DNA of 37,992 nt. It comes from Phormidesmis priestleyi Ana (GTDB lineage Bacteria; Cyanobacteriota; Cyanobacteriia; Phormidesmidales; Phormidesmidaceae). Under the pieces are notes generated by a model, which did not search any database, had not been told where the DNA came from, and saw only the letters and a program-made list of their open reading frames with translations. Positions within the stretch are counted from its first letter, which is position 1. Every line of letters starts with the position of its first letter. The DNA is taken from the NCBI GenBank assembly GCA_001314865.1, contig LJZR01000037.1, forward strand, positions 1 to 37,992, given 5' to 3'. Shown here one piece after another: positions 2,367 through 31,669 of the stretch. A program made the position numbers and the translations under genes.

Positions 2367-5300
2367 ATGTTAAAGACAGTCAAAGATGCCTGTACAATTC
2401 ACGCGTCAACCCTGGACTATCAGGTAGCGGGCGGCGTTGAGAGCCTGGCTCAGATGATTGACTCTCCAGACGAGGGTAAGTCCTTTTTTGAGAAAAGCTA
2501 CCTGACTAGAGGCATGGAGGAGCTGCTCCGTGAAGGATTACTGCGGCTGTCGGGGCAGACGGATCAGGCATTGTTTGAACTGGCTCAGGCGATGGGGGGC
2601 GGTAAAACCCACCTGATGTGTGCGTTAGGGCTGCTAGCAAAATATCCATCTGCGCGATCGCATGTTTTACCTTCAGATGTCATCGCGCGTCTAGACGACA
2701 CGCAGGCTCAGGTCGCTGTGTTCGACGGTCGAGATAGCCCAGACCATTATCTGTGGGGAGAAATTGCCCAGCAGCTCGGGGCAGAAGAGGCGATGCGTCC
2801 CTTTTGGCAAAATGGTCCTAAGGCACCTGGCAAAGAGCATTGGAAAGAAATGATTGGCGATCGCCCGACGCTGATCCTGTTTGATGAACTGCCGCCTTAC
2901 TTCCTCGAAGCCAGGACAATGACCGTGGGTAAAGGGTCTATGGTAGATGTGCTTACTCGGGCGCTCTCAAACCTGTTTGTGGCAGCGCTTGAGCTTCCGC
3001 GCTGCTGCGTAGTGCTAGCCAACCTGTCTGATAGCTATCGAGATCAAGTCAAGGAAGTGAATAAGCTCGTGGCCGATGTGCAGCGAGAAGCTTCGCGGCA
3101 AGCCAAGAAGATTACGCCCGTTTCCCTGGAAGGCAGCGAAGTCTATTCAATTTTGCGTAAGCGTCTATTTTCCTCACTGCCAACAGATGAGGAGATTGAT
3201 GAGGTTGCTGAAGCCTATGCCGAGCAAGTGAAGCTAGCGGAAGATAGCGGCTACTTAACCGCGCGGAGTTTAGAGCAAATTGCCGAGGAAATTCGGGCGA
3301 CCTATCCCTTTCATCCCTCGTTTAAGCATTTGGTTGCCCTGTTCAAGGACAACCCAGATTTTCGCGAGACGCGGGGGCTATTGCAATTTGCTGCAAGGGT
3401 CGTGAGATCGGTGTGGCAGCGAGATCATAATGATGTCTTTTTGGTGGGTACTCAGCACCTGGCCTTGAATGACTCTCAGGTGATGAATGAGGTGACGGAT
3501 ATTAACCGGGCGCTGCGACCGGCGATCACGATGGATATTGCCGATAATGGCAATGCCCATGCGGAAGATATTGACGCTAACTTGAACAGTGATGCGGCTT
3601 CGCAAGTGGCGGCGATGATTTTGTCAGCGTCGCTTTCTTTGGCGGTGAAGGGGCACATGGGGCTGCGCCGAGAGGAAGTGATTGAGTACCTCTCTGCGCC
3701 GAATCGGAAGCCGGAGGAGTTTGCTCAGGCGTTTGAGCGGTTGCGTAAGAGCGCTTGGTATCTTCACTCTGAAGGCGAGCTGTTTTACTTCAAAGATACT
3801 GAGAACCTGACGAAGCGAATTCAGCGCGAGGCGAAGGGTCTGCCTGAGGCCAAGGTATATAAGACGCTAAAAATTCGATTAGAGGGAGAGCTGGAGGCCA
3901 GGTCGCGCAAAGCCTACCAAGAAGTGATGGTGATGCCTGAAGTCGATGAAATCAAACTCGGCACACATCGCATTTTAGTGGTCGTACCGCCCGACAACCG
4001 GGTGCCGCCAGAGGATATCCAGCGGTTTTATCAATCTGTGTCGGAAAAAAACAACCTGCTGCTGCTCTCCGGCAATGACACCCATATGGCGAGCCGGGTA
4101 GAAGAAGCGCTACGGGAGCTATATGCCATTGAAAATATTGCCAAGGGTTTGAACACCAGCGATCCGCTGTATGTGCAGGCGCAAGATGCCAGAGAAGAAG
4201 CAGAGGGTTCGTTTATTCAGGCGTTGCAAGGCACCTATAACCGGCTGTTTTACCCTTCTGAAGAGGGGCTGCAACCGGCCACGATTGAGAATGGGCTGAA
4301 GTTTGGCCAAACCAGCGAAGACAGTGTGGAAAGCCAAATTGAGACGATGCTCTCTAGTATGCGCTGTGACGAAAAGTTGGCTGTAGATGCTGACGAAAAC
4401 CCCATCAAGTATTTTTCGATGGCAGAGGAAGATCTTTGGCCGCAGAGCGATCGCCGTACGCCTTGGCGCGACGTGCTGATGCGAGCTAAAAGTAATCCGG
4501 CTTGGCCTTGGCTGCCTGGCCTTAAGGGGTTAGACACGCTAAAGGTGAAGGCCATTTCCCAAGGGCGATGGCGCGAAGGGAATGACGGCTGGATTGAGAA
4601 AGGCCCTTTCCCTAAGGAAAAAACTGCCGTTAATATTTCTAGCCAAGAAGATACTCGCGCTGGAGAATCGGTGCTCTCGATTACGCCGAGTCATGCGGGG
4701 CCTAGTCCAAAGGTGCGCTACTCGACGACGGCGACGGTGAGTGAAGCCGATCCGGTCGTAGAGGATTTGGATGCTTTTCGAACTAAAGAACCAACGCTGT
4801 ATTTCCGAGCTTTTGATAGTACGGGCAATCATGCGTCTGGCGAGCCTAAGCGATGGGTGGCTAAGCTTAAGGTGCGCTATCAGGTACATGAGTATGCTGA
4901 CCATCGCAAGGTGGAGCTAGCGGTGACGCCCAAGGCTGAAATTCGCTATACGACCGATGCGACAAACCCGCGTGAAGGTCGAGTTTATGACGAGCCTTTC
5001 GCCATTTCAGATGATCGCACACTGCTTCAGGTCTATGCCAGTGCAGGCGAGGCGAAAGCGACTGAAACTTTTACGATTGCAGAGAAGGGCACCCAGCGAG
5101 CTGAGATTGATGAGGCGCTTCCGGCCAAATTAAAACGCCAGAAACCTCGCTTTGATACGACGAATGCGGTGTTTGGTTTAATTACGACATTTAAGGATCG
5201 TCAGGGTGTCGTATTTCATGGGGTTACCCTAAACGTAGGGGAAGGGGAGCAAGCGGTGCAGGTACGGTTTAACGATCGGGCTGTGACGCCGATCATTTTA

Positions 5301-5459
5301 GAAAAAGTGATCGCAGCACTCAGGGAAAATCTAGATGAGCCGGATGCTTTGGTACAGTTAACTATCCGAGATAGTGCTGCTTTTGATACAGGGTTTGACC
5401 TCAAAGCCTTTGCTGAACTCGCAGGCATTGAGCTCACACCGGATTCAGTGGAGCAGTGA
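2367..5459 (+). CDS. DUF499 AAA-type ATPase, anti-phage island core
   Basis: This 1030-residue ATPase has the DUF499 layout. A Walker A-like loop AMGGGKTH lies at residues 75-82 and Walker B LILFDEL at 169-175, followed by PPYFLEAR. A helical region follows. The C-terminal part (~850-930) resembles a chitobiase-type beta sandwich (ELAVTPKAEIRYTTDATNPR). DUF499 proteins occur in defence islands beside DUF1156 methylases and large helicases, and BREX has a similar large ATPase (BrxC/PglY). The ATPase probably powers or switches a complex on DNA; its exact reaction is unknown. It is the first gene of the operon, behind a good promoter, and its stop overlaps the GTG of the DUF3780 gene. The ATG at 2367 is the only early start, although its ribosome site is weak. 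Confidence 0.88.
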   Translation: MLKTVKDACTIHASTLDYQVAGGVESLAQMIDSPDEGKSFFEKSYLTRGMEELLREGLLRLSGQTDQALFELAQAMGGGKTHLMCALGLLAKYPSARSHVLPSDVIARLDDTQAQVAVFDGRDSPDHYLWGEIAQQLGAEEAMRPFWQNGPKAPGKEHWKEMIGDRPTLILFDELPPYFLEARTMTVGKGSMVDVLTRALSNLFVAALELPRCCVVLANLSDSYRDQVKEVNKLVADVQREASRQAKKITPVSLEGSEVYSILRKRLFSSLPTDEEIDEVAEAYAEQVKLAEDSGYLTARSLEQIAEEIRATYPFHPSFKHLVALFKDNPDFRETRGLLQFAARVVRSVWQRDHNDVFLVGTQHLALNDSQVMNEVTDINRALRPAITMDIADNGNAHAEDIDANLNSDAASQVAAMILSASLSLAVKGHMGLRREEVIEYLSAPNRKPEEFAQAFERLRKSAWYLHSEGELFYFKDTENLTKRIQREAKGLPEAKVYKTLKIRLEGELEARSRKAYQEVMVMPEVDEIKLGTHRILVVVPPDNRVPPEDIQRFYQSVSEKNNLLLLSGNDTHMASRVEEALRELYAIENIAKGLNTSDPLYVQAQDAREEAEGSFIQALQGTYNRLFYPSEEGLQPATIENGLKFGQTSEDSVESQIETMLSSMRCDEKLAVDADENPIKYFSMAEEDLWPQSDRRTPWRDVLMRAKSNPAWPWLPGLKGLDTLKVKAISQGRWREGNDGWIEKGPFPKEKTAVNISSQEDTRAGESVLSITPSHAGPSPKVRYSTTATVSEADPVVEDLDAFRTKEPTLYFRAFDSTGNHASGEPKRWVAKLKVRYQVHEYADHRKVELAVTPKAEIRYTTDATNPREGRVYDEPFAISDDRTLLQVYASAGEAKATETFTIAEKGTQRAEIDEALPAKLKRQKPRFDTTNAVFGLITTFKDRQGVVFHGVTLNVGEGEQAVQVRFNDRAVTPIILEKVIAALRENLDEPDALVQLTIRDSAAFDTGFDLKAFAELAGIELTPDSVEQ

Positions 5460-6130
5460 AACCTTACCCGATGACTATGGCTACTGATCTGAAAAAGACG
5501 ACGCCCAAAAAGACGCCCACAAAATCGGCCAACAAGGCCGACAAGGTTGCCCATGCGACTCAGGGGTTTGGCGTGCCTTTGACGGCTGCGCCTCATCATT
5601 TTGTGGTGGTGATTCCTCGGGGCAATCAGCAGCCGGTGCAGATTGTAGAAGATCTGGGGATGCATGTTCACAGTGATGAGAGTGAGGTACTAGATCGTGT
5701 GGTGCTGCCACGCTCTATATGGACGGAGATTGCGAGTCCGGTGAAGCGGATGTTTAATGAGCGGCTGAAGGCGCATGCGTTGAAGCCGGGGCAGTGGAAG
5801 GTGGGCAACAACCGGGTGGATCGGCTGTTGGGCAAGGAGCTATGTGTGTTGGCTTGGGCGGTTGAAGACCTAGAGGAGGAGAAGGTGGGGGCGGCGTTGC
5901 GAAACTGGCTATCGTTGCGTCCGGAGGAGCGCTGGTGGTTGTTTGGGATGACGGCTTCTACGGTGGGTGGCCTAAATGACAAAGGGAAAGGTTGGCGGAT
6001 GGCGCTTAAGTATGCGTTGGGCGATTCGCCGCAGGCGGTGATTTTGGAGACTCGGAAGGTGCAGACGCAGGCACCGAAAAAGAGCAAGCCGGATGATGGC
6101 TATGAAACACTGCCGTTATTTCAAAATTAG
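5456..6130 (+). CDS. DUF3780 protein, anti-phage island core
   Basis: The 224-residue soluble protein contains the DUF3780 signature GFGVPLTAAPHHFVVVIPRG at about 38-57. Conserved regions follow around VLPRSIWTEIASPVKRMFNERL and the tryptophan-rich LRPEERWWLFGMTA. The first 35 residues are Lys/Thr-rich and probably disordered. No enzyme motif is visible and the family has no assigned activity. It is strictly linked to DUF499 and DUF1156 genes in defence islands, so it is probably a structural or specificity subunit. The GTG start overlaps the DUF499 stop (GTGA), showing translational coupling; an ATG at 5471 is an alternative start that removes five residues. Confidence 0.82.
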   Translation: MKPYPMTMATDLKKTTPKKTPTKSANKADKVAHATQGFGVPLTAAPHHFVVVIPRGNQQPVQIVEDLGMHVHSDESEVLDRVVLPRSIWTEIASPVKRMFNERLKAHALKPGQWKVGNNRVDRLLGKELCVLAWAVEDLEEEKVGAALRNWLSLRPEERWWLFGMTASTVGGLNDKGKGWRMALKYALGDSPQAVILETRKVQTQAPKKSKPDDGYETLPLFQN

Positions 6131-6455: not shown

Positions 6456-6707
6456 ATGACTATTCAAGAATTATTGAGCGCGGCTCAAGAGTTGAGTTTG
6501 CCAGATCAACTGCAACTTGCCAGTCAGCTTATGCAGGCGGCTAGCCAAAGACTTCAGACGGCTTCCGAACCTACTTCACCGCTGTCGGATACAGAAGATC
6601 CTTTAATTGGTCTTTTTTCTGGCTCTGTGGATTTGGCTACGCGCTCTGAAGAAATCTTAAAGCAAGAAATCAATTCGGGTTCTGGGTTTACATGGAAAGA
6701 GTCTTAG
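6456..6707 (+). CDS. Antitoxin of a VapBC-type pair (DUF2281-like)
   Basis: The 83-residue protein begins MTIQELLSAAQELSLPDQLQ. Its distal part DPLIGLFSGSVDLATRSEEI is typical of cyanobacterial antitoxins that precede PIN toxins: an N-terminal dimerising helix pair, then a toxin-binding tail. AAGAGG lies about 9 nt upstream of the ATG. The gene overlaps the toxin gene by 16 nt, which ensures that the antitoxin is made first. Such antitoxins usually repress their own promoter; no clear operator was identified in the 47 nt upstream. Confidence 0.75.
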   Translation: MTIQELLSAAQELSLPDQLQLASQLMQAASQRLQTASEPTSPLSDTEDPLIGLFSGSVDLATRSEEILKQEINSGSGFTWKES

Positions 6708-7105
6708 CCGATAGTGGCTTTGTTGTCGCTTTAGCAAATCGTTCTGACCAAAGGCACGCTGATGTTGCCCCTATTTATAAACAGTATGCGCAAATTTTAT
6801 TGCCTCAGATGGTGTTAGTTGAAGTCGCATACTTAATCGGTCGTGATATAGGCATTTCTACAGTAGTTAAATTTCTGAAGGGGCTGTCGGCTAGTCGATT
6901 TGAAGTGATTGAAGCGTCAGATGAAGACCTTGATCGAACGGCTCAAATATTAGAGCAGTATGCTGATAGCAAAGTTGACTTTGTTGATGCAGTTGTTATG
7001 GCGATTGCAGAACGCTTCAACATCACAAAGATTCTGACTATTGATCAGCGTGATTTCAGGCTTTTCAGGCCGTCACATTGTGAAAGCTTTACGTTGCTTC
7101 CTTAA
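6692..7105 (+). CDS. PIN-domain toxin ribonuclease (VapC-like)
   Basis: The 137-residue protein is a complete PIN domain. The acidic active-site residues are visible: D7 in VLADSGF, E44 in LVEVAYL, D96/D99 in KVDFVDAVVMA and D118 in ILTIDQRDF. VapC-type toxins cut tRNA, rRNA or mRNA with Mg2+ when the antitoxin is lost. Together with the overlapping antitoxin gene it forms an intact addiction pair inside the restriction-like island, where such modules stabilise the island or act in abortive infection. The ATG at 6692 lies inside the antitoxin frame; no other start would keep D7 near the N-terminus. Confidence 0.85.
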   Translation: MERVLADSGFVVALANRSDQRHADVAPIYKQYAQILLPQMVLVEVAYLIGRDIGISTVVKFLKGLSASRFEVIEASDEDLDRTAQILEQYADSKVDFVDAVVMAIAERFNITKILTIDQRDFRLFRPSHCESFTLLP

Positions 7106-7175: not shown

Positions 7176-10100
7176 ATGCCAATCAATCCTTTAACGCCGT
7201 TAGCCCTACAAGATGCCCCCTCACTAATTGAGCGGGTGTTTCCGGCGCAGAAGGTTTCGGCGGAGGCGCAGAAGGAGCGCAAGGCGGGTGCGGGGCAAAC
7301 GCTGACGGCGTTGGGGTCGTATTGGAAGGGGCGCAAGCCGCTGATTATGGTGCGGGCGATCGTGCTGGGTTGTTTGTTGCCGGTGACGGATGATCTGGAG
7401 GCGGATCTACATATTTTTGAGAAGCTGATGGCGATGGATGATGCGGCTTTTGGGCGGCGGGAGCCGAAGCTGAAGGTGGCGGAGATTGCGCAGCGGATTA
7501 CGTTGGCGAATCCTTGGGATTTTTTTGAGTACAGCAACCAGTTTTATGACCAATCGGAGATTGAGGCGCTGCAATTTCCGTTGGATGCTGGGCAGTATCC
7601 AAAGTTGAAGTTGCGCTGGCAGCGGGGGCTACCGGATGAGAAGAAGCATCTGCTGCTGGCTCAAGCGCTGGTGGGGTTGCCCTATGAGGAAAAGGTAAGG
7701 TTGTGCCGTCGTCCGGAGGAGCTTGATCCGGAAATGTTGTATGGGTCAATTTGGGAGGATGTGAATGCGCATTTAGGAGAGTTTGGGGTAGAGGCGTATT
7801 CTCATGAGGCGTTGGTGGAGCAGTTGGGGATGCTGCGTTATGGGCATCGGCCTCGGGTGGGGGATACGTTTTGTGGGGGTGGATCGATTCCGTTTGAGGC
7901 GGCGCGGTTGGGATGTGATGTGTATGCGTCGGATTTGAATCCGGTGGCTTGTATGTTGACTTGGGGGGCGCTGAATATTATCGGGGCGAGTGCAGAAAAG
8001 AGAAAAGAGATTGAAAAGGCGCAGCGGGAAGTTGCAGAAGCGGTAGATCGAGAGATTACTGAATTAGGGATTGAGCACAACGAACGAGGAGATCGGGCGA
8101 AGGCGTTTTTGTATTGTTTAGAAACGCGGTGTCCCGAGACGGGGTGGATGGTGCCGATGGCACCGAGTTGGGTGATTTCTAAGAGTAGGCAAGTCTGTGC
8201 AAGGCTGACTCCTAATTTTGAGAATAAGCGATTTGACATAAATGTTTTGAGCAACGCTAGTGACTTGGAAATGAAGGCTGCCGCTCAGGGAACTGTGCAA
8301 GATGGCAGTTTAGTTTACGAACTAAAAGGCGAACTATATCGTCACTCAATTAAGACAATTAGAGGTGATTATAGAACTGAAAGTAGTGAAAACCGAAATC
8401 GCTTACGGCAGTGGGAATTACATGATTTTAAATCCCTACCAAACGATATTTTTCAAGAGAGATTATATTGCATTCAATGGATTACTCAAGAAACTTTGGG
8501 GCAATCTCGTCAGGAGACTTACTTTTCATCAGTGTCTGATACAGATATAGATCGAGAAAGACAAATTGAGCATATCGTTGAGAAGAATATAGAGACCTGG
8601 CAAAAGATAGGACTAGTTCCTGATATGGTGATTGAGCCGGGTTACAATACGGACCAGCCTATTCGTGAGCGAGGATGGCGATACTGGCATCATTTGTTCA
8701 ACCCACGGCAGATGAGTCTCTTCCAGATGTATTTCCGAAATATTACTCAGTCTGGTTTTGCAGAGTACCTTTCTGTTATCTTAGCAAAGTCTCTTGACTG
8801 GTCGAATCGATTAACGAAATGGGATAGTAGTCTAGGCAGTGATAAAGTTACAAATCTGTTTTTTAATCAGGCATTAAATACCAACTATAACTATGGATGT
8901 AGAGGTACAAAATATCTTGAAAACCATACTTTAGGTTCATTTAATAAAACGGCCATTGGAGATACGGTCAATGTCAATTCATTGATTAATGCCTGTAACG
9001 CCAGCGATCTTAGTCTCAATACGCCTTTAAATATCTGGATTACTGATCCACCCTACGCTGACGCTGTTAACTACGAAGAAATAACAGAATTCTTCATCGC
9101 ATGGCTCCGCAAAAATCCCCCTGCCCCCTTCGACCAATGGACTTGGGATTCCCGCCGTGCCCTAGCCATCAAAGGCGACGGCGAAGACTTCCGACGCGGT
9201 ATGGTCGAAGCCTATCGCGCCATGACTACTCACATGCCCGACAATGGCCTCCAGTGTGTCATGTTCACCCACCAAGACACCAGCGTGTGGGCTGACATGG
9301 TTTCCATCTTTTGGGCAGCAGGACTGCAAGTCGTCAGCGCCTGGTACATCGCCACTGAAACCACCTCCGAACTCAAACAAGGCGGCTACGTCCAAGGCAC
9401 CGTTACACTGCTACTGCGCAAACGACTCGCCACAGCATCCACCTTTAAGCAAAGACTGCTTCCTAAAATCCGCAAAGAAGTCACCGCCCAAATCGAAGAC
9501 ATGCTGAACCTTAACGACAAATCCCAACAGCATGGCGAAACCGTATTTAACGACTCCGACCTCCAAATGGCAGGCTACGCCGCCGCCCTAAAAGTCCTCA
9601 CCGAATACACCGAAGTCGATGGCCGCGACATGACCACCCTCGCCCTCCAACCTCGCCAAAAAGGCGAAACCACCGTCGTTGATGACATTGTGAAATATGC
9701 CTCCGAAGTCGCCAACAATCTACTCATTCCCGACCAACTCAGAGCCCTTAACCCCGACACCTGGAGCGAAATTACCGGCGTCGAGCGCTTTTACCTGCGC
9801 ATGGTCGCCATCGAACAAACCGGAGCCGCCAAGCTCGACAACTACCAAAACTTCTCTAAAGCCTTCAACGTTGCCTACCAGCCCCTCATGGCCTCGCTAG
9901 AAGCCAACAAAGCCAGACTAAAAGGCGCAAAAGAATTCAAACCCCGCGAGCTAACCGGCGGCGACCTAAGCGGAACGCTATTGAGCGAATTACTCATAGC
10001 CATTCAGGAACTGCTGAACGACAAAGATCCCAAAGTCGTACTGGGTCAAATTCGCAGCAGCCTGGATGCCAGCTACTTCCAAAAACGCCCTCATTTGATG

Positions 10101-10202
10101 GCAATGGCCCACTACCTAGCCAATATGTGGCGCGATCGGCGTCCTGAAGAAGCTCAAAAAGCTGAAATTATAGGCGATCGTATTCGCAACGAGGGTATTT
10201 AA
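7176..10202 (+). CDS. DUF1156 adenine-type DNA methylase, anti-phage island core
   Basis: The protein has 1008 residues. The N-terminus matches DUF1156 (LIERVFPAQKVS, then ALGSYWKGRKPLIMVR). The SAM-binding motif I lies at about 228-236 (GDTFCGGGSIPFEAARLG) and the catalytic motif DPPY at 624-627, followed by ADAVNYEE. This is the motif order of a beta-type amino-methyltransferase acting on adenine N6 or cytosine N4; DPPY favours adenine. About 390 residues separate the two motifs and probably hold the target-recognition region. The likely role is to mark host DNA so that the helicase/ATPase partners spare it. Base composition changes sharply within the gene: G-rich to about 8160, AT-rich to about 9050, C-rich after about 9090, which suggests recombination. 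It follows the VapC gene by 70 nt. Confidence 0.88.
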   Translation: MPINPLTPLALQDAPSLIERVFPAQKVSAEAQKERKAGAGQTLTALGSYWKGRKPLIMVRAIVLGCLLPVTDDLEADLHIFEKLMAMDDAAFGRREPKLKVAEIAQRITLANPWDFFEYSNQFYDQSEIEALQFPLDAGQYPKLKLRWQRGLPDEKKHLLLAQALVGLPYEEKVRLCRRPEELDPEMLYGSIWEDVNAHLGEFGVEAYSHEALVEQLGMLRYGHRPRVGDTFCGGGSIPFEAARLGCDVYASDLNPVACMLTWGALNIIGASAEKRKEIEKAQREVAEAVDREITELGIEHNERGDRAKAFLYCLETRCPETGWMVPMAPSWVISKSRQVCARLTPNFENKRFDINVLSNASDLEMKAAAQGTVQDGSLVYELKGELYRHSIKTIRGDYRTESSENRNRLRQWELHDFKSLPNDIFQERLYCIQWITQETLGQSRQETYFSSVSDTDIDRERQIEHIVEKNIETWQKIGLVPDMVIEPGYNTDQPIRERGWRYWHHLFNPRQMSLFQMYFRNITQSGFAEYLSVILAKSLDWSNRLTKWDSSLGSDKVTNLFFNQALNTNYNYGCRGTKYLENHTLGSFNKTAIGDTVNVNSLINACNASDLSLNTPLNIWITDPPYADAVNYEEITEFFIAWLRKNPPAPFDQWTWDSRRALAIKGDGEDFRRGMVEAYRAMTTHMPDNGLQCVMFTHQDTSVWADMVSIFWAAGLQVVSAWYIATETTSELKQGGYVQGTVTLLLRKRLATASTFKQRLLPKIRKEVTAQIEDMLNLNDKSQQHGETVFNDSDLQMAGYAAALKVLTEYTEVDGRDMTTLALQPRQKGETTVVDDIVKYASEVANNLLIPDQLRALNPDTWSEITGVERFYLRMVAIEQTGAAKLDNYQNFSKAFNVAYQPLMASLEANKARLKGAKEFKPRELTGGDLSGTLLSELLIAIQELLNDKDPKVVLGQIRSSLDASYFQKRPHLMAMAHYLANMWRDRRPEEAQKAEIIGDRIRNEGI

Positions 10203-10293: not shown

Positions 10294-11397
10294 TTGGACA
10301 ATTTACGAAGGCTGACCCTGCGCGGATTTAAGTCCATAAAATCTATTGACCTTGAGCTTCATGCTTTAAATATTCTGATTGGAGCCAACGGCGCAGGTAA
10401 GAGCAATTTTATTTCGTTCTTTAAAATGCTTAATGAAATGATGGCCGGACGCTTTCAGCAATATGTTGGCACCTCAGGACGTGCTCAGTCCCTTTTACAT
10501 TTTGGGCCAAAAGTAACGCCTCAGATAGAAGCAAAACTTGAGTTTGCCGTTGAAAGCGGAGTCGATAAATATGACATGAGACTGTTTCATGCTGCTAGCG
10601 ACACTTTAATCTTCGCAGAAGAATCGATGAGCTTTCAGGCCGAAGGGTGGGACTCTCCAAGAACTGATCAACTAGGTGCAGGACACCCAGAAGCTAAACT
10701 CCGTGAAGCCGCCAAGGAAGATGGACAAAATACAGCTAAAGCCCTCAAGTACTTGCTCGATCGCTGCCGGGTTTATCATTTTCATGACACTTCAGCGACA
10801 GCAGCGGTGCGGCAATCCTGTTACGTTGGCGATAGTCGATGGCTCATGCCGGATGCTGGCAACTTAGCCGCACTACTTTTGCGATTTCGAGAAGAAGACA
10901 TATCGGCCTATCGACAAATTGTCGGTACTATTCAACTGATCGCGCCCTTTTTTGAGGACTTTGTGCTTGAACCAGATGCTTCTCGCAATGTCATTTTGAA
11001 CTGGCAAGAAAAAGGCGCAGACCGGGTATTCGGGCCTCATCAGTTTTCAGATGGGACTTTGCGCGCCATCTGTCTCGCTACGCTGCTCTTGCAACCAGAA
11101 GACGAACTCCCAAAACTCATCGTCGTAGACGAACCTGAGCTAGGTCTTCACCCCTATGCTCTAAATGTACTGGCCGATTTATTTAGGAGAGCAGCGCTGC
11201 ATACTCAAATTCTAATCAGCACACAGTCTAGTTCTTTTTTAGATAACTTTGAGCCAGAAGACGTGATTGCGGTGAACCGAGAAGGTAAGGAATCGCAGTT
11301 TAGAAGACTAAGTCCTACGGAGCTAGATCCTTGGCTTGATGAATACAGCTTAGGAGAAGTTTGGGAGAAAAACATCATTGGCGGAGGGCCTCATTAA
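10294..11397 (+). CDS. AAA ATPase of the OLD/RloA-like class (AAA_21)
   Basis: The 367-residue ABC-type ATPase has N-terminal LRGFKSIKSIDLEL, Walker A GANGAGKS at 30-37, the signature-like FSDGTLRAICLA near 250, and Walker B LIVVDEPELGLHP around 276-288. STQSSSFLDNF follows as the H-loop region. Proteins of this build pair with a Toprim or other nuclease partner in OLD-, Gabija- or PARIS-like defence and usually act as the sensor. The start is TTG at 10294, decided by AGGAG at 10281-10285 with 8 nt spacing; no ATG precedes Walker A at a fitting distance. Its TAA overlaps the ATG of the DUF4276 gene (TAATG), so the two are translationally coupled. The exact trigger is unknown. Confidence 0.85.
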   Translation: MDNLRRLTLRGFKSIKSIDLELHALNILIGANGAGKSNFISFFKMLNEMMAGRFQQYVGTSGRAQSLLHFGPKVTPQIEAKLEFAVESGVDKYDMRLFHAASDTLIFAEESMSFQAEGWDSPRTDQLGAGHPEAKLREAAKEDGQNTAKALKYLLDRCRVYHFHDTSATAAVRQSCYVGDSRWLMPDAGNLAALLLRFREEDISAYRQIVGTIQLIAPFFEDFVLEPDASRNVILNWQEKGADRVFGPHQFSDGTLRAICLATLLLQPEDELPKLIVVDEPELGLHPYALNVLADLFRRAALHTQILISTQSSSFLDNFEPEDVIAVNREGKESQFRRLSPTELDPWLDEYSLGEVWEKNIIGGGPH

Positions 11398-12083
11398 TGG
11401 CTCGCCTTTACCTAATTGTTGAAGGACAAACCGAACAGACCTTTGCAGACACTCTTATAAAACCCCATCTAGCGCAACGTCAAGTATATATGAACAAGCC
11501 CGTACTTGTTGCTCACGCAAAAAAGAAAGGGAGAGTTCACAGAGGTGGTGGTCAAAACTATGCACCTATGAAAAACGACATCATACGATTTCTCAAACAG
11601 GACAAAGATCCAGATGCGTATTTCACAACCATGATTGATTTATACGCCCTTTACGCCGACTTTCCTGGCCTAACTGAAGCCCAGCAGATGCAACCAGACC
11701 CGTTTGAGAGGGTTAAATTCCTAGAGCAAAAATTCGCAGAAGACATTGACGACCCTCGATTCATTCCTTATCTCCAGCTGCACGAATATGAGGCATATCT
11801 TTTTTCTGACCCTACTTGCTTTGAATACCTTGATGCTGGAGGCATGCAAGCCGTAAAAACACTTCAATCTATTGCGAGTCAGTATGAGACACCCGAACTT
11901 ATTAACGATGGGTCGCAAACAGCACCAAGCAAACGCATTATTGCTTTGTTCCCCGACTATGAAAAAGCAAAAACTGCCTTTGGCCCTCAGCTAGCCGCAA
12001 AAATAGGACTCTCAGTCATTCGCGATCGCTGCTCACACTTCAATGACTGGCTATCAAAGCTTGAGTCTTTAAATAGCCAATAA
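11397..12083 (+). CDS. DUF4276 Toprim-like partner of the AAA ATPase
   Basis: The 228-residue protein starts MARLYLIVEGQTEQTFADTL. VEGQTE (8-13) is the glutamate-bearing first motif of Toprim-like nucleases, and MIDLYAL with DFPGL (about 80-95) supplies the next acidic motif. FIPYLQLHEYEAYLFSDP is typical of DUF4276. Such proteins lie beside AAA_21 ATPases in defence islands and probably act as metal-dependent nuclease effectors held in check by the ATPase. The ATG at 11397 overlaps the ATPase stop, and GGAGG at 11383-11387 lies 9 nt upstream. A longer frame from 11361 exists but has no such site. The substrate, DNA or RNA, cannot be told from the sequence. Confidence 0.8.
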   Translation: MARLYLIVEGQTEQTFADTLIKPHLAQRQVYMNKPVLVAHAKKKGRVHRGGGQNYAPMKNDIIRFLKQDKDPDAYFTTMIDLYALYADFPGLTEAQQMQPDPFERVKFLEQKFAEDIDDPRFIPYLQLHEYEAYLFSDPTCFEYLDAGGMQAVKTLQSIASQYETPELINDGSQTAPSKRIIALFPDYEKAKTAFGPQLAAKIGLSVIRDRCSHFNDWLSKLESLNSQ

Positions 12084-12129
12084 ACGAATGATAGCGTGAC
12101 ACAATAAATACACAGCAGAAACCCATCTC

Positions 12130-12714
12130 ATGATTGCCACACCCAGTCCACAGAAAATGACGGTTGAAGCCTACTTCGATTGGGAACCCCGTCAGGAACT
12201 TCGCTATGAATTTGTTGATGGCGAAGTTTTGGCCATGGCAGGAGGTACCCTCGCCCACAACGATATTGCCGTTAATCTCCTCACTGCCCTACGACCTTCC
12301 TTACAAAAACAAGGCTGTCGTATCAACATCGCCGATGCCAAAGTACAAGTCACCGCATCTCGCTACCGATATCCTGACCTAGTTGTCACCTGCGACGAGC
12401 GAGACAAAACCGCGCTCAATGCTATTCAATACCCTAAGCTCATCATTGAGGTGCTTTCTGTCGGAACCGAGGCACTCGATAGAGGCGAGAAACTTAAAGA
12501 ATATTGTCAGCTACCTAGCCTAGAAGAATATGTATTAATCAGCTCAACACAAATTAGCGTTGAAATTTATCGTCGCACTCAAGGGCGATTTTGGCTGTAT
12601 ACGGCTTATCAACCCGGAGACAGCATTGTACTTGAAAGTGTTGGCTTCGAGTTCCCTATCAACCTTCTCTACGACGGCATTGCGCAATTTTCGCCACCTA
12701 TCCCCACGGACTGA
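12130..12714 (+). CDS. Uma2 family endonuclease-like protein (DUF820)
   Basis: The 194-residue protein has the Uma2 layout: an early MTVEAYFDWE and LRYEFVDGEVLAMAGG, then the PD-(D/E)XK core with YRYPDLVVTC near 78-87 and LIIEVLS around 104-110. A conserved lysine, GEKLKEY, follows, then EEYVLIS. The fold is that of restriction-type nucleases. The family is hugely expanded in cyanobacteria and its natural substrate is mostly unknown, so I infer only a probable Mg2+-dependent nuclease. It is convergent with the PIN-like gene on the other strand (21 bp between the stops). Its link with the surrounding defence genes may be incidental. Confidence 0.85.
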   Translation: MIATPSPQKMTVEAYFDWEPRQELRYEFVDGEVLAMAGGTLAHNDIAVNLLTALRPSLQKQGCRINIADAKVQVTASRYRYPDLVVTCDERDKTALNAIQYPKLIIEVLSVGTEALDRGEKLKEYCQLPSLEEYVLISSTQISVEIYRRTQGRFWLYTAYQPGDSIVLESVGFEFPINLLYDGIAQFSPPIPTD

Positions 12715-12735
12715 CCCCAGGTAGCAGTTATTAAG

Positions 12736-13410
12736 CTAATCTCCATACTCATGTAGCAAATTGCCAGTTTCAGCCCTTAGCGTCTCAATGTAGGCCGCAA
12801 TAGCCGAAAGGACATTTTCTTCTGTAGACTGTGCGCCCGAACCAAAAACAGCTTTACAAGCCTTATCACAATCTCTCACGGGCACAATTTTGTCGCGCAC
12901 GACTTCAAAGCCATACTCACGAATGTCTCGCAATATGAGCTGTTCCAAACACCAGAATCTATTCGCAAACAGCGCTTGCAGCTCTGGTAATTCTGCCTGA
13001 GCCAACGCCCTCAAATATCTCTTGTCGCCAGTCAGTATAAACGCCTCACCCGTCTCATCTTTTTGAAGCACTTGGGCAACGTACGTCGTCAGAATGGCCT
13101 CACCCGCATCTATGCCCTCACAACCAGAAAGCTGCCCAAACAAATCGCTATTTACCTCAGCTTGGCTAATTTGGGGCAGTGTCTCAGCTAACTCAATGGT
13201 TCTCTTGTAATTTATTAGCTTGGCTTCGAGTCGTCGGCACTTGCCCTTATTTAACTGGGCTAAATCTCCTCGAAACTTATACTTCGCCGTAGCTAGCACT
13301 CTAATCTCAGTACGATCTGCCTCAAAAAGGTTGATCGTTTCATCGAACAGCTCAAAGGTCGCTAGCTTTTTGATAATGTCATTGTCAATGCAATAAAGGC
13401 AACCCGTCAA
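12736..13410 (-). CDS. PIN-like nuclease paired with the ImmA/IrrE protease
   Basis: The 224-residue protein starts with LYCIDNDIIKKLATF, whose D9 and D11 fit the first acidic motif of a PIN fold. GIDAGEAIL supplies D101 and E104, and ILTGDKRYL supplies D129. The C-terminal 90 residues are helical and unassigned. The start is TTG at 13410, supported by GGGAG inside the end of the protease gene at 7 nt spacing; no ATG lies close. The two genes are separated by 2 nt, so they are one unit. This pairing looks like a toxin-antitoxin or abortive-infection module in which the PIN-like protein would be the toxin. That assignment is inferred from fold and context. Confidence 0.7.
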   Translation of the reverse strand: MTGCLYCIDNDIIKKLATFELFDETINLFEADRTEIRVLATAKYKFRGDLAQLNKGKCRRLEAKLINYKRTIELAETLPQISQAEVNSDLFGQLSGCEGIDAGEAILTTYVAQVLQKDETGEAFILTGDKRYLRALAQAELPELQALFANRFWCLEQLILRDIREYGFEVVRDKIVPVRDCDKACKAVFGSGAQSTEENVLSAIAAYIETLRAETGNLLHEYGD

Positions 13411-13412
13411 AT

Positions 13413-14417
13413 CTACTCTCCCAGGATGCGCTCAAGATGATCTATCGTGTCATCGTTCAGATTTTCCCAATCCAAATTCTCTTCTAAAAATCTGTGAATC
13501 ATTGCCTCACCAGATTCCTCACAGCCTAGTTCTTGTACTGCTTTTTGTGCCAATCCAAACTTCTGAGGATCAATCTTCTTAGCGTGCCAACCGTAGTTAA
13601 AGGCTAAAATGCAGGCGTCCACAGTAGGGTCTGCTTCTATCTTCTCTTCTATCTTTCTCCTTAACTGCCCGTTGTTGTAAATAGATAAGCCTCGAAAGCA
13701 ATTATCGTACTGGTTTACAAGCAACTCAACTGCAAAACGATTCGCTGCCGTTTCCTCTACATCGTCAGATTCGTTGATTTCATCGTCTATCAAAATCCCC
13801 GTTTCTACATGACCCAGTGCTAAGTGACCTAGCTCATGTGCCAGATGAAAAGCTAACCAGGCCGGATGTGTCGTCTTATGGCTAAGCAAAATGACTGGGC
13901 GATCGCCTTGCCATTGAATCATGCCCGTTATTTTACGATTACCTGTCGGGTAATCATTGAAATATACAACGGCGATACCATGCTGCCAGCAATAGCTTAG
14001 CAAACTCTCCAGGTCTACTTTAGAACCGTGCATAAGAACGTCTTTGCGAACCTGATCAGCGGCTGTCGGAACAGGAGCGAAAGGCTGTGTCTTGAGACTA
14101 GTCGCCACTATCTCCGCCACCCGAGAAGCAAGCTGAGGAGAAACCTGTGGAACATCTGAGGCTTGCTGAGAATGATATTTGAACTTAGTGGGCAGTAAGG
14201 CTTTGAACCTAGCTTCCGAATCGTCTTGCAATAAGCTACTCAAATCCAAATGCAGCCGTTGCGCAATATGCGCCGATCCTTCGAGTACCGCAGATGGAAT
14301 TTCATTGAGCTCATCATCCCACCAGCTGGGCAACCCCGCCCTGCGCACGTAGCTTTCACTCAAGCCAACTGCCGACAGTTTCTTAAGTAAGCGAGCCATA
14401 GATAAAGATTGATTCAA
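13413..14417 (-). CDS. ImmA/IrrE-type metallopeptidase with N-terminal helical domain
   Basis: The zinc-peptidase motif HELGH lies at about residues 194-198 of the product from this start (HLAHELGHLALGH), with WLAFHLA before it and the later EETAANRFAVELLVN. This is the ImmA/IrrE (DUF955) pattern. ImmA proteases cut repressors in response to a signal, and many pair with an XRE-type regulator; here the first ~100 residues are helical and could hold a degenerate HTH. The start is uncertain. A GTG at 14438 gives 341 residues, but GGAGG lies exactly 8 nt before the TTG at 14417, which I prefer (334 residues). The protease may control the downstream PIN-like protein. It faces away from the DUF262 gene. 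Confidence 0.82.
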   Translation of the reverse strand: MNQSLSMARLLKKLSAVGLSESYVRRAGLPSWWDDELNEIPSAVLEGSAHIAQRLHLDLSSLLQDDSEARFKALLPTKFKYHSQQASDVPQVSPQLASRVAEIVATSLKTQPFAPVPTAADQVRKDVLMHGSKVDLESLLSYCWQHGIAVVYFNDYPTGNRKITGMIQWQGDRPVILLSHKTTHPAWLAFHLAHELGHLALGHVETGILIDDEINESDDVEETAANRFAVELLVNQYDNCFRGLSIYNNGQLRRKIEEKIEADPTVDACILAFNYGWHAKKIDPQKFGLAQKAVQELGCEESGEAMIHRFLEENLDWENLNDDTIDHLERILGE

Positions 14418-14953
14418 TGACTGTGCCTCCTGCTCCACCTTTTGAAAGGAATCGACCTTGTTTCTATCTTTGACGTTTGGGAATGCTGCTACCCCCTGAT
14501 TACCTACGGTTAATGATATCTATGCTACCAATATTCCAGCCTTTATAACCATCACCAATAGATGTGAGGCTCATTACCTAGTTGATATTTAGCGCGATCG
14601 CCGTTGTAAAGAAGCATAAAGAGCGGAAATGATGGGCGATTCTTCGGAGAGGTTCCGCCATCGCATCTGCAAGGAGGGTATTTAGATTCATCGTCGGATG
14701 CATTCGTACGACAGCAATCTACTCCTAAGAAACACAAGCTAATCAACCTTGAAAAACCTAAATTGTCGTCACTACGGCGACAATTTTGTTTCTTTCAGGT
14801 TTATCGAATAGCAAGCAGAGCTGTTCATGAGGGGCTCAGATGAAAATACATAACGGTTCTAGCGATCATTAATGTACTAAGCTAAGTGGTCAAAGCTATA
14901 GATACCGCTATTCTGCTCTGAATATATTGTGTTCTTTTTTATACGAAAATCCT
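14418..14953. other. Divergent intergenic region between ImmA/PIN and DUF262/helicase units
   Basis: About 535 bp lie between the divergent genes and should hold promoters for both. I see no gene with a plausible start. A plus-strand frame is open from about 14607 to 14842 but has no ATG and no recognisable family. One HIP1 site occurs near 14593. A strong hairpin lies at 14760-14786 (listed separately). No clear -35/-10 pair stood out by eye. Confidence 0.5.
14760..14795. terminator. Bidirectional hairpin resembling an intrinsic terminator
   Basis: AAATTGTCG (14760-14768) and CGACAATTT (14778-14786) form a perfect 9-bp stem, extendable by two pairs over a 5-nt loop. TGTTTCTTT follows on the plus strand. 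The opposite strand reads TTTAGGTTTTT after the stem, so it could work both ways. A terminator inside a divergent promoter region is odd and suggests a short transcript on one side. Confidence 0.4.
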
Positions 14954-16786
14954 ATGGCAACCTTTAGAAGCGATAACTGTGATTTGCCCGATATATTGAA
15001 GGAAATTGTATCTGGGAAAATCCAGCTTCCAGACTTTCAGCGAGGTTGGGTCTGGGACGATAGCCATATTCAAAGCTTGTTAGTCAGTATTGGTCGTTCG
15101 TTCCCCGTTGGAGCCGTTATGCTGCTAGAAACCGGCGGTGAAGTTCAGTTTCAGGTGAGACCGATTGAAAACGTACAGTTGCCACAGCCCTTACCCCAAG
15201 CAGCTCAGCTCATTCTTGACGGTCAGCAGCGGTTAACCACGCTAACTCAGGTGCTTTCTCTAAATGGCCCTGTCAAAACGCGCACCGCTAAAGGCAAAGC
15301 CATCAAACGCTACTACTACATCCATATCCCTACAGCCCTTGAAGCGCCAGAACGTTTGGAAGATGCGCTCATTGCAGTGGATGAAAGTCGGCAGGTAAAG
15401 TCAAACTTTGGTCGGCAAGTTGATTTGGATCTATCTTCCCGAGAACTAGAATGCCGACAGCTCTGCTTCCCCTGCAATCAAATTTTGAACTGGTCAGAAT
15501 GGTTGCAAGATCTCAACAAATTTAATGGTCAAGAGCTAGGACAGTTCTTGACTTTTCAAAGGCAAGTGTTGGATGTCTTCACGACCTACAAAGTTCCCAT
15601 CATTGCGCTAAAAAAAGAAACCTCCAAAGAGGCTGTTTGCTTGGTATTTGAGAAAGTCAATACAGGTGGCGTACAGCTATCTGTGTTTGAACTTATTACC
15701 GCTAGTTACGCAGCGGATGGCTATAACCTGCGGGACGATTGGTATGGCAGCAAGCTTCGTTCTGTGGAGTCTCGCCAAAAGCGTCTCGCTAAAGATGAAC
15801 CCCTTCTCTCCCAGGTCGAATCAACCGACTTTCTCCAGGCGATTACCCTACTACATACACTAGACAAACGCCGCGCCGATATGGCCGCAGGAAAGCAAGG
15901 CAAGCAAGTATCTCCAGTGAGTGCCAAGCGCAGCTCAGTGCTAGAGCTGCCGTTGTCTGCCTACGAAACATGGGCGGGCAAAGTAGAAGGCGGCTTTCGT
16001 CTTGCCGCCAAATTCCTCAAAAAGCAGTCATTTTACGCGGTTCGAGAACTGCCTTACCGCACCCAAATCGTACCGCTAGCTGCCGTTTTGACACAACTCC
16101 AAGAGCGATGGTTAGAGCCTCGCATTTATGACAAATTAGCCCAATGGTTTTGGTGTGGCATTTTAGGCGAACTCTATGGTGGAGCCGTTGAAACCCGCAT
16201 TGCCAACGATCTCGAAGAACTTCTCCTTTGGATTAACGACGATACTCATATTCCTCGCACCGTAGGAGATGCCTCTTTCCAACCAGAACGCCTAGACCGA
16301 CTAACCACACGACTGAGTGCGGCTTACAAGGGCATCAATGTGTTAGTCCTACGCGAAGGAGCCGCAGACTTCTTTTGGAAAGCCAGCATTAAAGAATTAG
16401 ATGCCCAAGAAATTGCTCTTGATATTCACCATATTTTTCCTCGTGCTTGGTGTGAAGAAAAGGGTATTCCTAAAAAACAGTACGATACGATTGTCAACAA
16501 AACTCCTATCTCCTACAAAGCCAATCGCATGATTGGTGGATCAGCGCCCTCCGCCTATCTTCAAAAGCTTCAAAGTCATGCTCAAGTCCAACTGACTGGC
16601 GTAGAGATGGACAAAATTCTGGCGAGTCACTGTATACCCCCAGAGAAACTGCGCATAGATGACTTCGATAGTTTCTACAGCGAACGAAAGCAGTCCTTAC
16701 TAAAGCTGATCTCGGTAGCAATGGGTAAGCAAGTTCTAAGCGAAGGCTTAGAAACGCAAGACGATGGTGACGAGGAAGAAGTATGA
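14954..16786 (+). CDS. DUF262 protein with HNH-like (DUF1524-type) C-terminus, GmrSD-like
   Basis: The 610-residue protein carries the DUF262 motifs LPDFQRGWVW (25-34) and LDGQQRLTTL (88-97). These form a ParB-like NTP-binding/hydrolysing fold in GmrSD-type enzymes. The C-terminal DIHHIFPRAW (490-499), followed by NKTPISYKANRMIGGSAPS, matches a DUF1524 HNH nuclease motif. Single-chain DUF262-DUF1524 proteins are type IV restriction enzymes that cut modified phage DNA, so this gene could add restriction of modified DNA to the island. The ATG at 14954 is preferred; a frame from TTG at 14927 adds nine residues. ATGA overlap with the next gene shows coupling to the PLD-helicase. Confidence 0.83.
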   Translation: MATFRSDNCDLPDILKEIVSGKIQLPDFQRGWVWDDSHIQSLLVSIGRSFPVGAVMLLETGGEVQFQVRPIENVQLPQPLPQAAQLILDGQQRLTTLTQVLSLNGPVKTRTAKGKAIKRYYYIHIPTALEAPERLEDALIAVDESRQVKSNFGRQVDLDLSSRELECRQLCFPCNQILNWSEWLQDLNKFNGQELGQFLTFQRQVLDVFTTYKVPIIALKKETSKEAVCLVFEKVNTGGVQLSVFELITASYAADGYNLRDDWYGSKLRSVESRQKRLAKDEPLLSQVESTDFLQAITLLHTLDKRRADMAAGKQGKQVSPVSAKRSSVLELPLSAYETWAGKVEGGFRLAAKFLKKQSFYAVRELPYRTQIVPLAAVLTQLQERWLEPRIYDKLAQWFWCGILGELYGGAVETRIANDLEELLLWINDDTHIPRTVGDASFQPERLDRLTTRLSAAYKGINVLVLREGAADFFWKASIKELDAQEIALDIHHIFPRAWCEEKGIPKKQYDTIVNKTPISYKANRMIGGSAPSAYLQKLQSHAQVQLTGVEMDKILASHCIPPEKLRIDDFDSFYSERKQSLLKLISVAMGKQVLSEGLETQDDGDEEEV

Positions 16787-20932: not shown

Positions 20933-21132
20933 CCCTTGTATTGAAACCTATTTGTAGCAAGCTGTCCAGCATCCATTTGCGAGCCTCATGCCATTTAATA
21001 GCTCCCCAGCCCTACCAACCCTCAAAATAATCCCTACAACCCAGGCCCCACAAGGCGTCGAGGCTGACAACGGCAGCATCAGCCTTTCCAGCTTTTCTCC
21101 CCACCCTCGCAACACCTTAAATAACATACCCC
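20933..21132 (-). promoter_or_regulatory. Leader of CRISPR array 1
   Basis: Exactly 200 bp separate the first repeat of array 1 from the cas2 stop codon. A copy with 14 differences and no gaps flanks array 2 at 37004-37203. The 59 bp at 20938-20996, next to the repeat, are identical in both, as expected for a Cas1-Cas2 recognition site. It should contain the array promoter; I could not place it with confidence. An open frame across the leader is judged non-coding. Confidence 0.8.
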
Positions 21133-26476: not shown

Positions 26477-26481
26477 GTGTT

Positions 26482-27360: not shown

Positions 27361-27413
27361 AATTCCTCTGTTGATTGAGTTAGTAGGTTATAGATGGGTA
27401 AGTGAAAGCTGTC

Positions 27414-31663
<4,250 letters not shown>

Positions 31664-31669
<6 letters not shown>

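Follow-up and report, generated by a model that had tools for sequence, protein, structure and literature searches.

The closest described relative of the locus studied here is the Type-2 BREX-related (BR) system, which comprises a DUF499 ATPase with an Fn3-like region, DUF3780, a DUF1156 methyltransferase with a nested target-recognition domain (TRD) and an HKD-SNF2 helicase (PMC12839542). The main text of that paper uses none of the terms “recombination,” “skew” and “GC content.” For RM genes, the abstract on domain movement (DOMO) reports that specificity domains move by recombination at conserved flanking DNA, in Helicobacter and other species from one TRD position to another via flanking repeats; strand-skewed arms do not feature in that abstract (PMC3077401).

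Our window, the whole stretch of 37,992 nucleotides from the cyanobacterium Phormidesmis priestleyi Ana that was analysed, holds the sequence hallmarks of a Type-2 BR system: the DUF499 ATPase, a stand-alone DUF3780 gene, an HKD domain at the helicase N terminus and a DUF1156 methyltransferase with its TRD before DPPY (Table 1). In contrast to the published description (PMC12839542), accessory genes separate the methyltransferase from the helicase, and a PIN gene precedes the methyltransferase. Unlike in DOMO, a single TRD is nested here as an insert, and the conserved arms are long stretches of coding DNA.

Table 1. Coordinates of the features of the defence locus in the window
Feature	Position	Strand	Basis
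DUF499 AAA+ ATPase of Type-2 BR system	2367..5459	+	Pfam DUF499 2.3e-21; PADLOC DUF499 1176 bits over residues 2-1030
DUF3780 gene, stand-alone	5456..6130	+	Pfam DUF3780 1e-71
PIN-domain gene, between DUF3780 gene and methyltransferase	6692..7105	+	Pfam PIN 1.8e-12
DUF1156 DNA methyltransferase, BR-type, TRD nested in catalytic domain	7176..10202	+	Pfam DUF1156 9.5e-20; PADLOC DUF1156_MTase 1356 bits
Left arm: N-terminal part and SAM motif I	7176..8189	+	segmentation; third positions G.57 C.05
AT-rich block (TRD insert, exchange supported)	8190..9047	+	segmentation; third positions G.20 C.15 A.26 T.40
Right arm: DPPY motif and C-terminal part	9048..10202	+	segmentation; third positions C.48 G.12
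Accessory genes between methyltransferase and helicase	10294..16786	.	Pfam/PADLOC
HKD/PLD-SNF2 helicase effector of Type-2 BR system	16783..19548	+	Pfam PLDc_2, SNF2-rel_dom, Helicase_C; PADLOC PLD_Helicase 1234 bits

Results

Judged by its domains, the methyltransferase ORF (1008 aa) is a predicted N6-adenine-type methyltransferase of a DUF499-centred Type-2 BR defence system, for which N6-adenine methylation and phage restriction are further predicted traits. Its DUF1156 domain covers residues 21–83, SAM motif I lies at residue 230 and DPPY at residue 624 (nt 9045); a hypervariable block, by sequence the nested TRD, reaches from about residue 331 to 624–630, between the two motifs. A search of solved structures with this protein gave no match. 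The DUF499 ATPase has Fn3_assoc/CHB_HEX_C_1 matches at residues 842–902 (Pfam), and the helicase combines an N-terminal HKD (PLD) nuclease domain (PLDc_2, residues 21–179) with SNF2 and Helicase_C domains. The accessory region consists of a HEC-01A/B-like pair, Uma2, GmrSD_N and two minus-strand ORFs, one of them with an IrrE-like domain.

The original prediction described the gene as three blocks of different base composition, and these blocks are real. Per 100 codons, third-position G/C runs.63/.07,.56/.07,.52/.01,.31/.13,.23/.10,.19/.17,.11/.45,.14/.47,.07/.61 and.17/.37, in agreement with a three-segment maximum-likelihood fit that places the breaks at codons 338 and 624 (nt 8190 and 9048). 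The three segments improve the log-likelihood by 171, compared to at most 21.7 in 12 synonymous-codon shuffles. At fourfold sites the arms are even more extreme (G.69 and C.05 at residues 1–330; C.61 and G.08 at residues 616–1008). With motif I at residue 230 and DPPY at residue 624, the middle block falls between them, also as predicted. The predicted shift from G-rich to C-rich codons exists as well, but it is a strand asymmetry, in which the sign of the G/C skew flips, and not merely a change in GC content. Of the 389 ORFs with 300 aa or more in 1.04 Mb sampled from this genome, the methyltransferase gene has the widest internal range of G3-C3 (1.18), and the next is 0.64. Upstream, the DUF3780 gene has G-rich third positions (G/C.46/.12, then.64/.10) and so extends the left arm, the PIN gene is neutral (G3/C3.18/.14) and the DUF499 gene is mildly G-rich. 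The accessory genes are neutral to mildly C-rich (Uma2 G3/C3.10/.37).

A second claim, that the specificity region in the middle block has been exchanged, is borne out by alignment to relatives. Identity to the same-genus orthologue L002 is 88/47/91% in the N-terminal part, the TRD and the C-terminal part; at residue 331 it falls from 1.00 to 0.40, and at residue 631 it recovers from 0.47 to 0.97. These sharp edges, which coincide with the composition breaks and with the edges of the hypervariable block, make the exchange of the TRD well supported. In four orthologues (L002, L032, L033 and L034) the TRD is 41–54% identical and the arms are 82–91% identical. The relationships of the TRD are also discordant with those of the arms. 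The TRD of the window is 0.47 identical to that of L002 (arms 0.90) and 0.53 identical to that of Marinobacter (arms 0.64); the best cyanobacterial match (L032/L003) also reaches just 0.53, with arms at 0.86. Divergence is likewise uneven in a related genus, where the species pair L225/L022 has arms with 93–99% DNA identity and TRD-core windows with 43–55%; the remaining same-genus pairs in the list of the 22 closest resemble it. L216, L219 and L226, three related species that have much of the TRD in common, are a counter-example.

Across the species of one genus the arms are mostly 94–95% identical and the TRD cores near 50%. A 600-base piece of the right arm compared among ten of these species is 94–95% identical in seven of nine comparisons (92% and 86% in the others), and a dehydrogenase control gene in the same ten species is 75–77% identical in eight of nine, with no match in one; since the dehydrogenase gene shares its 158-kb contig, a plasmid, with the query and paralogues are possible in other genomes, this contrast may include transfer of the plasmid or of the whole system.

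The order of G-rich, AT-rich and C-rich blocks is found in most of the cyanobacterial orthologues examined, down to about 48–55% identity. It is also found in other DUF1156/HmaB methyltransferases, in BREX PglX methyltransferases and over separate genes around type I hsdS. A DUF1156 gene on plasmid pAQ6 of Picosynechococcus sp. PCC 7002, a naturally transformable laboratory strain, has the signature as well. The original prediction took the blocks for a mosaic of sources, and this recurrence across orthologues and other methyltransferase families leaves that reading unsupported. Similar blocks in all homologues had been named as evidence against a mosaic; within cyanobacteria they are largely present, with L006, L007 and L100 as orthologues that lack them, and outside cyanobacteria they are nearly always absent.

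To quantify the flip we started from 11 Type-2 BR loci, 20 loci of a second DUF1156 group, 19 of 30 PglX and 30 HmaB, and retained each locus whose middle is covered by one ORF of 600 codons or more (10, 20, 18 and 25, together 73), a rule by which broken or partial genes and L100, a cyanobacterial orthologue without a flip, dropped out. The median skew difference across the GC3 minimum is 0.87 in these 73 cyanobacterial methyltransferases, and the mean is -0.01 (sd 0.21, max 0.53) in 71 control ORFs from the genome of the window (p 1.7e-20, a value that ignores kinship, since same-genus relatives are not independent). The predicted signs of the skew occur in 62 of the 73 methyltransferases and in 12 of the 71 controls. 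They are missing in L006, L007, L011, L265–L268, L272, L185, L206 and L207. A distant Nostoc homologue has a left-arm skew of 0.00. A flip in long genes in general is ruled out, because the control ORFs centre on zero. A scan of genome G000 (1,585,467 bases, 27% of the genome) found no place beyond the top four peaks at D 0.6 and no divergent peak beyond -0.56; three of the four peaks were to be expected, as contigs C65, C81 and C92 had been chosen for RM hits.

Outside cyanobacteria the picture differs. In 73 non-cyanobacterial homologues the median skew difference is 0.02, only one value exceeds 0.5 and 16 homologues have the predicted signs, which rejects the skew as a feature of the protein family everywhere. 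Three non-cyanobacterial plasmid homologues from another DUF1156 group give -0.16, 0.01 and -0.09.

The skew follows the DNA strand and the position rather than the gene. Within 3 kb of hsdS, 33 of 36 plus-strand neighbours upstream are G-skewed and 17 of 20 downstream are not; around the methyltransferases the corresponding counts are 69 of 98 and 102 of 125. Opposite-strand neighbours agree with the DNA strand upstream of methyltransferases (26/30) and on both sides of hsdS (2/2 upstream, 5/5 downstream), but only in 7 of 11 cases downstream of methyltransferases and in 5 of 16 far upstream. Around hsdS the polarity spans genes as diverse as N6 methylase, YhcG, Schlafen, Fic, HsdR and DUF4145. 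One YhcG-family gene upstream of an hsdS has fourfold G.74/C.08, and another downstream of hsdS has G.06/C.75.

The mean profile of 27 loci is antisymmetric and decays over several kb. The helicase N terminus, which is C-rich beyond neutral accessory genes, is not what such a decay with distance would predict. In the profile GC3 is.60–.66 about 1 kb from the centre and about.5 several kb off; the profile is centred on the GC3 minimum, hence GC3 at the centre is low by construction. In 55 pooled genes (hand-picked, mostly showing the pattern) the arms are approximately mirror images as DNA. Fourfold G+C is.55 and.61 in the arms, compared to.57 in the genome of the window, with G and C strongly unequal in the arms; A and T are.20 and.25 in the left arm,.19 and.20 in the right arm, and.19 and.24 in the genome. 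Classical GC-biased gene conversion is strand-symmetric and would raise G and C alike in recombining DNA; the higher GC3 near the centre would fit it, the inequality of G and C in the arms would not. Fourfold identity to L103 is close to what composition alone predicts (.43 vs.40 and.41 vs.37), which means that the pattern outlives synonymous saturation.

Discussion

We somewhat favour a model in which recurrent TRD exchange by homologous recombination is coupled to preferential fixation of G on the strand that has its 3′ end towards the TRD. The middle block is, by sequence, the specificity region, and its alignments carry the marks of exchange; it is plausible that the exchange gave the system a new target sequence. 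The comparisons show both the exchange and the skew; homologous recombination in the conserved arms probably mediates the exchange, and we infer that it makes the skew too. Under this model the nested TRD would be replaced repeatedly through its flanking arms. In each arm the G-rich strand is the one whose 3′ end faces the non-homologous TRD, which would match a pair of 3′ ends that invade or anneal on both sides of a break or heterology, as the symmetry suggests. Biased mismatch resolution in the heteroduplex would then retain G on the 3′-facing strand at synonymous sites, and the TRD, unable to pair, would escape the bias and remain AT-rich. Rare variants at biallelic fourfold sites point the same way: the favoured base is the major allele at 21 sites and the minor allele at 4 (p 0.0009; 25 sites, ten related sequences). 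Rare variants that mostly replace the favoured base suggest a fixation bias rather than a mutation bias.

A comparable bias has been described at breaks in mouse cells undergoing single-strand annealing, where break geometry sets the winning strand in the heteroduplex (the longest 3′ flap), mismatch type has little influence and such bias can shape composition (PMC9001825). In contrast, the preference of G over C proposed here concerns bacteria and comes from sequence alone. In a literature search of a library with few subscription journals, judged from listings, abstracts and passages, we found no description of a mirror skew. “GC skew” denotes a track on a plasmid map in the passages of PMC5587805.

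Several other explanations have to be weighed. Three donors, each leaving a block with the composition of its own genome, would account for three sharply limited blocks of which the middle one was exchanged. This is hardly credible, since cyanobacterial orthologues from two or more families (f1; f23 for L010) share the blocks, some of them at synonymous saturation, as do unrelated specificity loci, a recurrence that refutes a three-donor origin of the G-rich and C-rich arms. One could also argue that codon choice is tuned to protein domains or translation speed, as the breaks in the window gene fall at domain edges. We consider this extremely improbable, because the polarity spans separate and diverse genes around hsdS, YhcG homologues have opposite codon preferences on opposite sides, and the two pooled arms nearly mirror each other at the DNA level. 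Strand-biased mutation, such as deamination of cytosines while a strand is single during transcription or repair, would fit a skew that is strand-level and distance-dependent. It is nevertheless improbable. A large G/C skew with little A/T skew at pooled fourfold sites is not what simple deamination leaves, the rare variants point away from the favoured base, and neighbours on both strands mostly track the same DNA strand, so that transcription direction is not the driver.

A more serious competitor, though still an unlikely one, reverses cause and consequence: the arms were selected as good recombination substrates (RecA-preferred, or with a Chi-like pause), and skewed lineages exchange their TRDs more and spread. 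Chi sites have a defined polarity relative to the break at which RecBCD acts, and the arms are oriented as Chi sites would be if they faced a break within the TRD. The fixation bias suggested by the rare variants fits such selection too. In 39 genes, hand-picked like the pooled set, short G-rich words are moderately more frequent than in synonymous shuffles (GGTGG 235 vs 190.6, sd 11.5; GGCGG 275 vs 197.4; GGGGCG 103 vs 60.1). RecA itself prefers TGG repeats that resemble Chi (PMC3763553), and the G-rich strand polarity toward the place of exchange is shared with our arms. Unlike Chi, however, the arms show a diffuse third-position bias, and no single motif explains it: GCTGGTGG occurs 4 times (2.8 expected from shuffles), 4-G runs 661 times (660.4) and 5-G runs 196 times (227). 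A single Chi-like motif, G-quadruplexes and long G runs show no clear excess over synonymous shuffles. The most strongly enriched words in the arms of these 39 genes belong to the palindromic HIP1 (GCGATCGC). Selection acting on many synonymous sites per arm would also need to be strong.

One could tentatively go a step further, to a reading that we hold with less than even confidence. In cyanobacteria, recurrent exchange of specificity DNA would drive a break-polarised, strand-specific conversion toward G and so create a mirror skew over at least 1 kb on both sides of RM, BREX and BR loci. The skew would therefore be a sequence-only detector of exchange hot spots and a record of strand-invasion polarity.

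Our results also carry a warning, that composition blocks within a gene are no evidence of a foreign origin for each block. Neither the way in which defence systems change their specificity in nature nor a possible strand bias of bacterial gene conversion is easy to observe. A signature that is legible in one genome and points at the exchanged DNA from either side would open both questions to testing, as it would predict the sites of exchange, the invading strand and the synonymous variants that win. In many cyanobacteria the mirror bias around swapped specificity DNA, G-rich before and C-rich after, may be an enduring trace left by the swapping itself.

Results

The neighbours of the DUF1156 methyltransferase gene, namely DUF499, DUF3780 and a PLD-SNF2 helicase, correspond to those of the BREX-related Type-2 BR system described in PMC12839542. 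According to the same source, the target-recognition domain (TRD) of the Type-2 BR methyltransferase is inserted inside the catalytic domain, past core strand 2. In the window, the operon is interrupted by a PIN gene and accessory genes.

Features of the window and their coordinates
Feature	Position (nt)	Remark
DUF499 gene	2367-5459	upstream of methyltransferase
DUF3780 gene	5456-6130	upstream of methyltransferase
DUF1156 methyltransferase	7176-10202	ORF, 1008 residues
Accessory genes	10294-16786	between methyltransferase and helicase
PLD-SNF2 helicase	16783-19548	farther downstream
ORF, 274 aa	19784-20608	minus strand
Cas1 gene	21418-22407	right of CRISPR array; about 20600-20950 also cited
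Cmr2, Cmr3, RAMP genes	24342-31669	after Cas1

Some individual loci deserve mention. One relative of the methyltransferase (G070:C1:45702-50044) is broken into two pieces that cover residues 2-290 and 286-1008 and are separated by some 1.3 kb; the N-terminal piece carries a single TGA, and an insertion has probably occurred close to residue 288. The helicase of a same-genus relative (G005:C417:32043-34809) consists of two overlapping ORFs of 602 and 355 codons, which suggests a frameshift or an assembly error. The 274-aa ORF is probably spurious: its upper end runs into CRISPR repeats and its Pfam match is weak and implausible.

The three composition blocks noticed in the original prediction are real. 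At third codon positions block 1 has G.57/C.05, block 2 is A+T-rich and block 3 has C.48/G.12. Likelihood segmentation sets the limits at codon 338 (nt 8190) and codon 624 (nt 9048); its gain of 171 compares with no more than 21.7 across 12 synonymous shuffles. Among 389 long ORFs sampled from 1.04 Mb of this genome, no other has as wide a range of skew as this gene.

It had also been proposed that the middle block is an exchanged specificity region, and this proposal holds. In the alignment with L002, a same-genus orthologue, divergence is concentrated in the middle block: protein identity is 88% before it, 47% within it and 91% past it. Across 30-residue windows the drop in identity, from 1.00 to 0.40, comes at residue 331 and the recovery, from 0.47 to 0.97, at residue 631. 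The window TRD is no nearer to that of L002 (0.47) than to one from Marinobacter (0.53), whose arms (the conserved coding DNA flanking the TRD) reach just 0.64; the top cyanobacterial TRD match (L032/L003) is 0.53 too.

In a second DUF1156 group we compared 28 genes. Among the 22 closest pairs, those from one genus have arm DNA identities of mostly.85-.99, peaking next to the TRD, and the majority of their TRD-core windows lie at.37-.68. For the pair L225/L022, the values are.93-.99 in the arms and.43-.55 in the TRD core. L216, L219 and L226, which form three pairs in another group, share much of their TRD (windows.55-.93). Of the nine other genomes of the L225/L022-type genus, seven match a 600-base stretch of the right arm at 94-95% identity and the remaining two at 92% and 86%. 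Two control genes gave 75-77% in eight of these nine genomes with no match in one (dehydrogenase), and 73-75% in two, the only matches (oxidase); both share the contig of the query, which the named record gives as a plasmid, and are therefore imperfect controls. TRDs have nonetheless been replaced between arms that barely diverged.

The blocks do not mark three sources, as the original prediction had supposed. The same order occurs in the orthologues L002, L003, L004, L033, L103 and L010 and in other methyltransferase groups; L011 has the right-arm signature alone, and the cyanobacterial orthologues L006, L007 and L100 lack the order. Fourfold-site agreement with the window gene is.43 and.41 for L103 (composition alone predicts.40 and.37) and.44 and.49 for L010 (.33 and.46 expected); it exceeds expectation more in nearer relatives such as L002 (.70 and.72 vs.53 and.54). 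Distant pairs have thus lost most of their synonymous history and still keep the blocks, and therefore something maintains them. A three-source mosaic is rejected on these grounds.

How widespread is the pattern? Our common statistic, the skew difference across the GC3 minimum, has a median of 0.87 in 73 cyanobacterial methyltransferases; in 71 control ORFs the mean is -0.01 (sd 0.21, maximum 0.53). The predicted signs, G-skew on the left and C-skew on the right, occur in 62 of the 73 vs 12 of the 71 controls. By group, they occur in 7/10 Type-2 BR genes, 20/20 loci of the second DUF1156 group, 13/18 PglX genes and 22/25 HmaB genes. The blocks themselves are present in all 20 loci examined of the second DUF1156 group, in most HmaB genes and in most intact BREX PglX genes. 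Named plasmids of Allocoleopsis PCC 7113, Nostoc commune SO-36, Nostoc linckia, Nostoc ATCC 53789, Pseudanabaena and Picosynechococcus PCC 7002 give 0.94-1.27. Leptolyngbya boryana (1.21) and BL0902 (1.11) have profiles identical to those of L227 and L214, respectively. A distant Nostoc homologue reaches 0.50 and has no left skew, and plasmid homologues from Rhodococcus (two) and Sinorhizobium (one) are near 0. Outside cyanobacteria, 73 homologues of the window gene were scored: a single one is above 0.5, and 16 show the predicted signs. The five highest (L043, L044, L045, L050, L057) come from Methylococcaceae (three), Methylovulum and Methylomicrobium, names of one family that may be another lineage carrying the signature.

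The skew is a property of the DNA and is centred on specificity DNA. Plus-strand neighbours within 3 kb of hsdS, the separate specificity gene of type I systems, are G-skewed upstream in 33/36 cases and not G-skewed downstream in 17/20; around methyltransferases the counts are 69/98 and 102/125. The hsdS neighbours are of many kinds (N6 methylase, YhcG, Schlafen, HsdR, DUF4145, Fic). A natural swap, a single pair 31% identical with both genes on the hsdS strand, is provided by YhcG-family genes: upstream of hsdS in the window's genome, fourfold sites have G.74/C.08, and downstream of a different hsdS G.06/C.75. Opposite-strand genes agree with the DNA strand in 26/30 cases upstream of methyltransferases (many of the 30 homologous to one another) but in just 7/11 downstream; around hsdS they do so in 2/2 upstream and 5/5 downstream. 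Beyond 4.5 kb the counts are 5/16 upstream and 19/25 downstream. Over 27 loci the mean skew is antisymmetric, with +0.34 some 1 kb upstream, about 0 at the centre and -0.39 some 1 kb downstream, where no locus is positive (0/27), decaying across about 6 kb on either side. The type I loci L228, L233, L234, L238, L240 and L247 show little of the pattern.

In L214, L215, L221 and L225 the first 200 codons of the SNF2 helicase are very C-rich (L215:.17/.64,.11/.71). Neutral accessory genes separate this patch from the methyltransferase, and distance alone does not explain it.

In 1.585 Mb of the window's genome D exceeds 0.6 at just four places (the window gene, one hsdS and two PglX-like genes), three of them on contigs picked for RM hits. 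Weaker convergent centres include a CHAT-TPS gene, TPR-CHAT and LRR-Roc genes, a glycosyltransferase cluster, an Eco57I methylase and others. Divergent peaks go down to -0.56, among other places at the TPR-CHAT gene; two of them flank a PglX locus on its outer sides. Skewed CHAT-TPS, TPR-CHAT, LRR-Roc-COR-TIR and glycosyltransferase/asparagine-synthase loci (L314:12515-18052, L298:3-3632, L325:9213-12757, L316:8206-11205), repeat-rich or cassette-type, may also recombine often. The coding (minus) strand of Cas1 is strongly G-skewed (G3 about.5, C3 about.05) and hence C-rich on the plus strand. This is the polarity of a right arm beside hypervariable DNA; the left side, the 3' end of the helicase gene, is without G-richness.

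Discussion

Our comparisons, made at the level of sequence, establish the blocks and their fit to the TRD edges; they also show TRDs discordant with their arms, and a skew that recurs at many cyanobacterial specificity loci and depends on strand and position. In the literature searched we found no account of such a mirror pattern.

Cytosine deamination is disfavoured as a source of the skew because G replaces C with scant A/T polarity. At pooled fourfold sites of 55 genes, left arms have G.40, C.15, A.20 and T.25, and right arms G.10, C.51, A.19 and T.20; the window's genome has G.27, C.30, A.19 and T.24. GCTGGTGG, long G runs and quadruplex patterns are in no clear excess over synonymous shuffles. 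Enrichment is moderate for GGCGG (275 vs 197.4), GGTGG (235 vs 190.6) and GGGGCG (103 vs 60.1), and the strongest enriched words are part of the palindromic HIP1. Ten sequences of one genus offer biallelic fourfold sites whose second variant is rare; there the favoured base, G on the left and C on the right, is the majority base at 21 sites and the minority base at 4 (p 0.0009), as would be expected if mutation leaves the favoured base and fixation restores it.

In both arms the 3' end of the G-rich strand points towards the TRD, a geometry matched if two 3' ends invade from both flanks of a break or heterology. Together with the rare-variant pattern, this favours recombination with a strand-specific fixation bias. 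At meiotic break hot spots, strand-asymmetric mutation patterns with a change of sign are known. The bias could be biased mismatch resolution or preferential use of G-rich strands. Strand-biased resolution is described for single-strand annealing in mouse (PMC9001825), and a RecA preference for TGG repeats in PMC3763553. We infer that recombination causes the skew, and by this route: recombination and a strand-specific fixation bias would together shape the arms around cyanobacterial specificity DNA.
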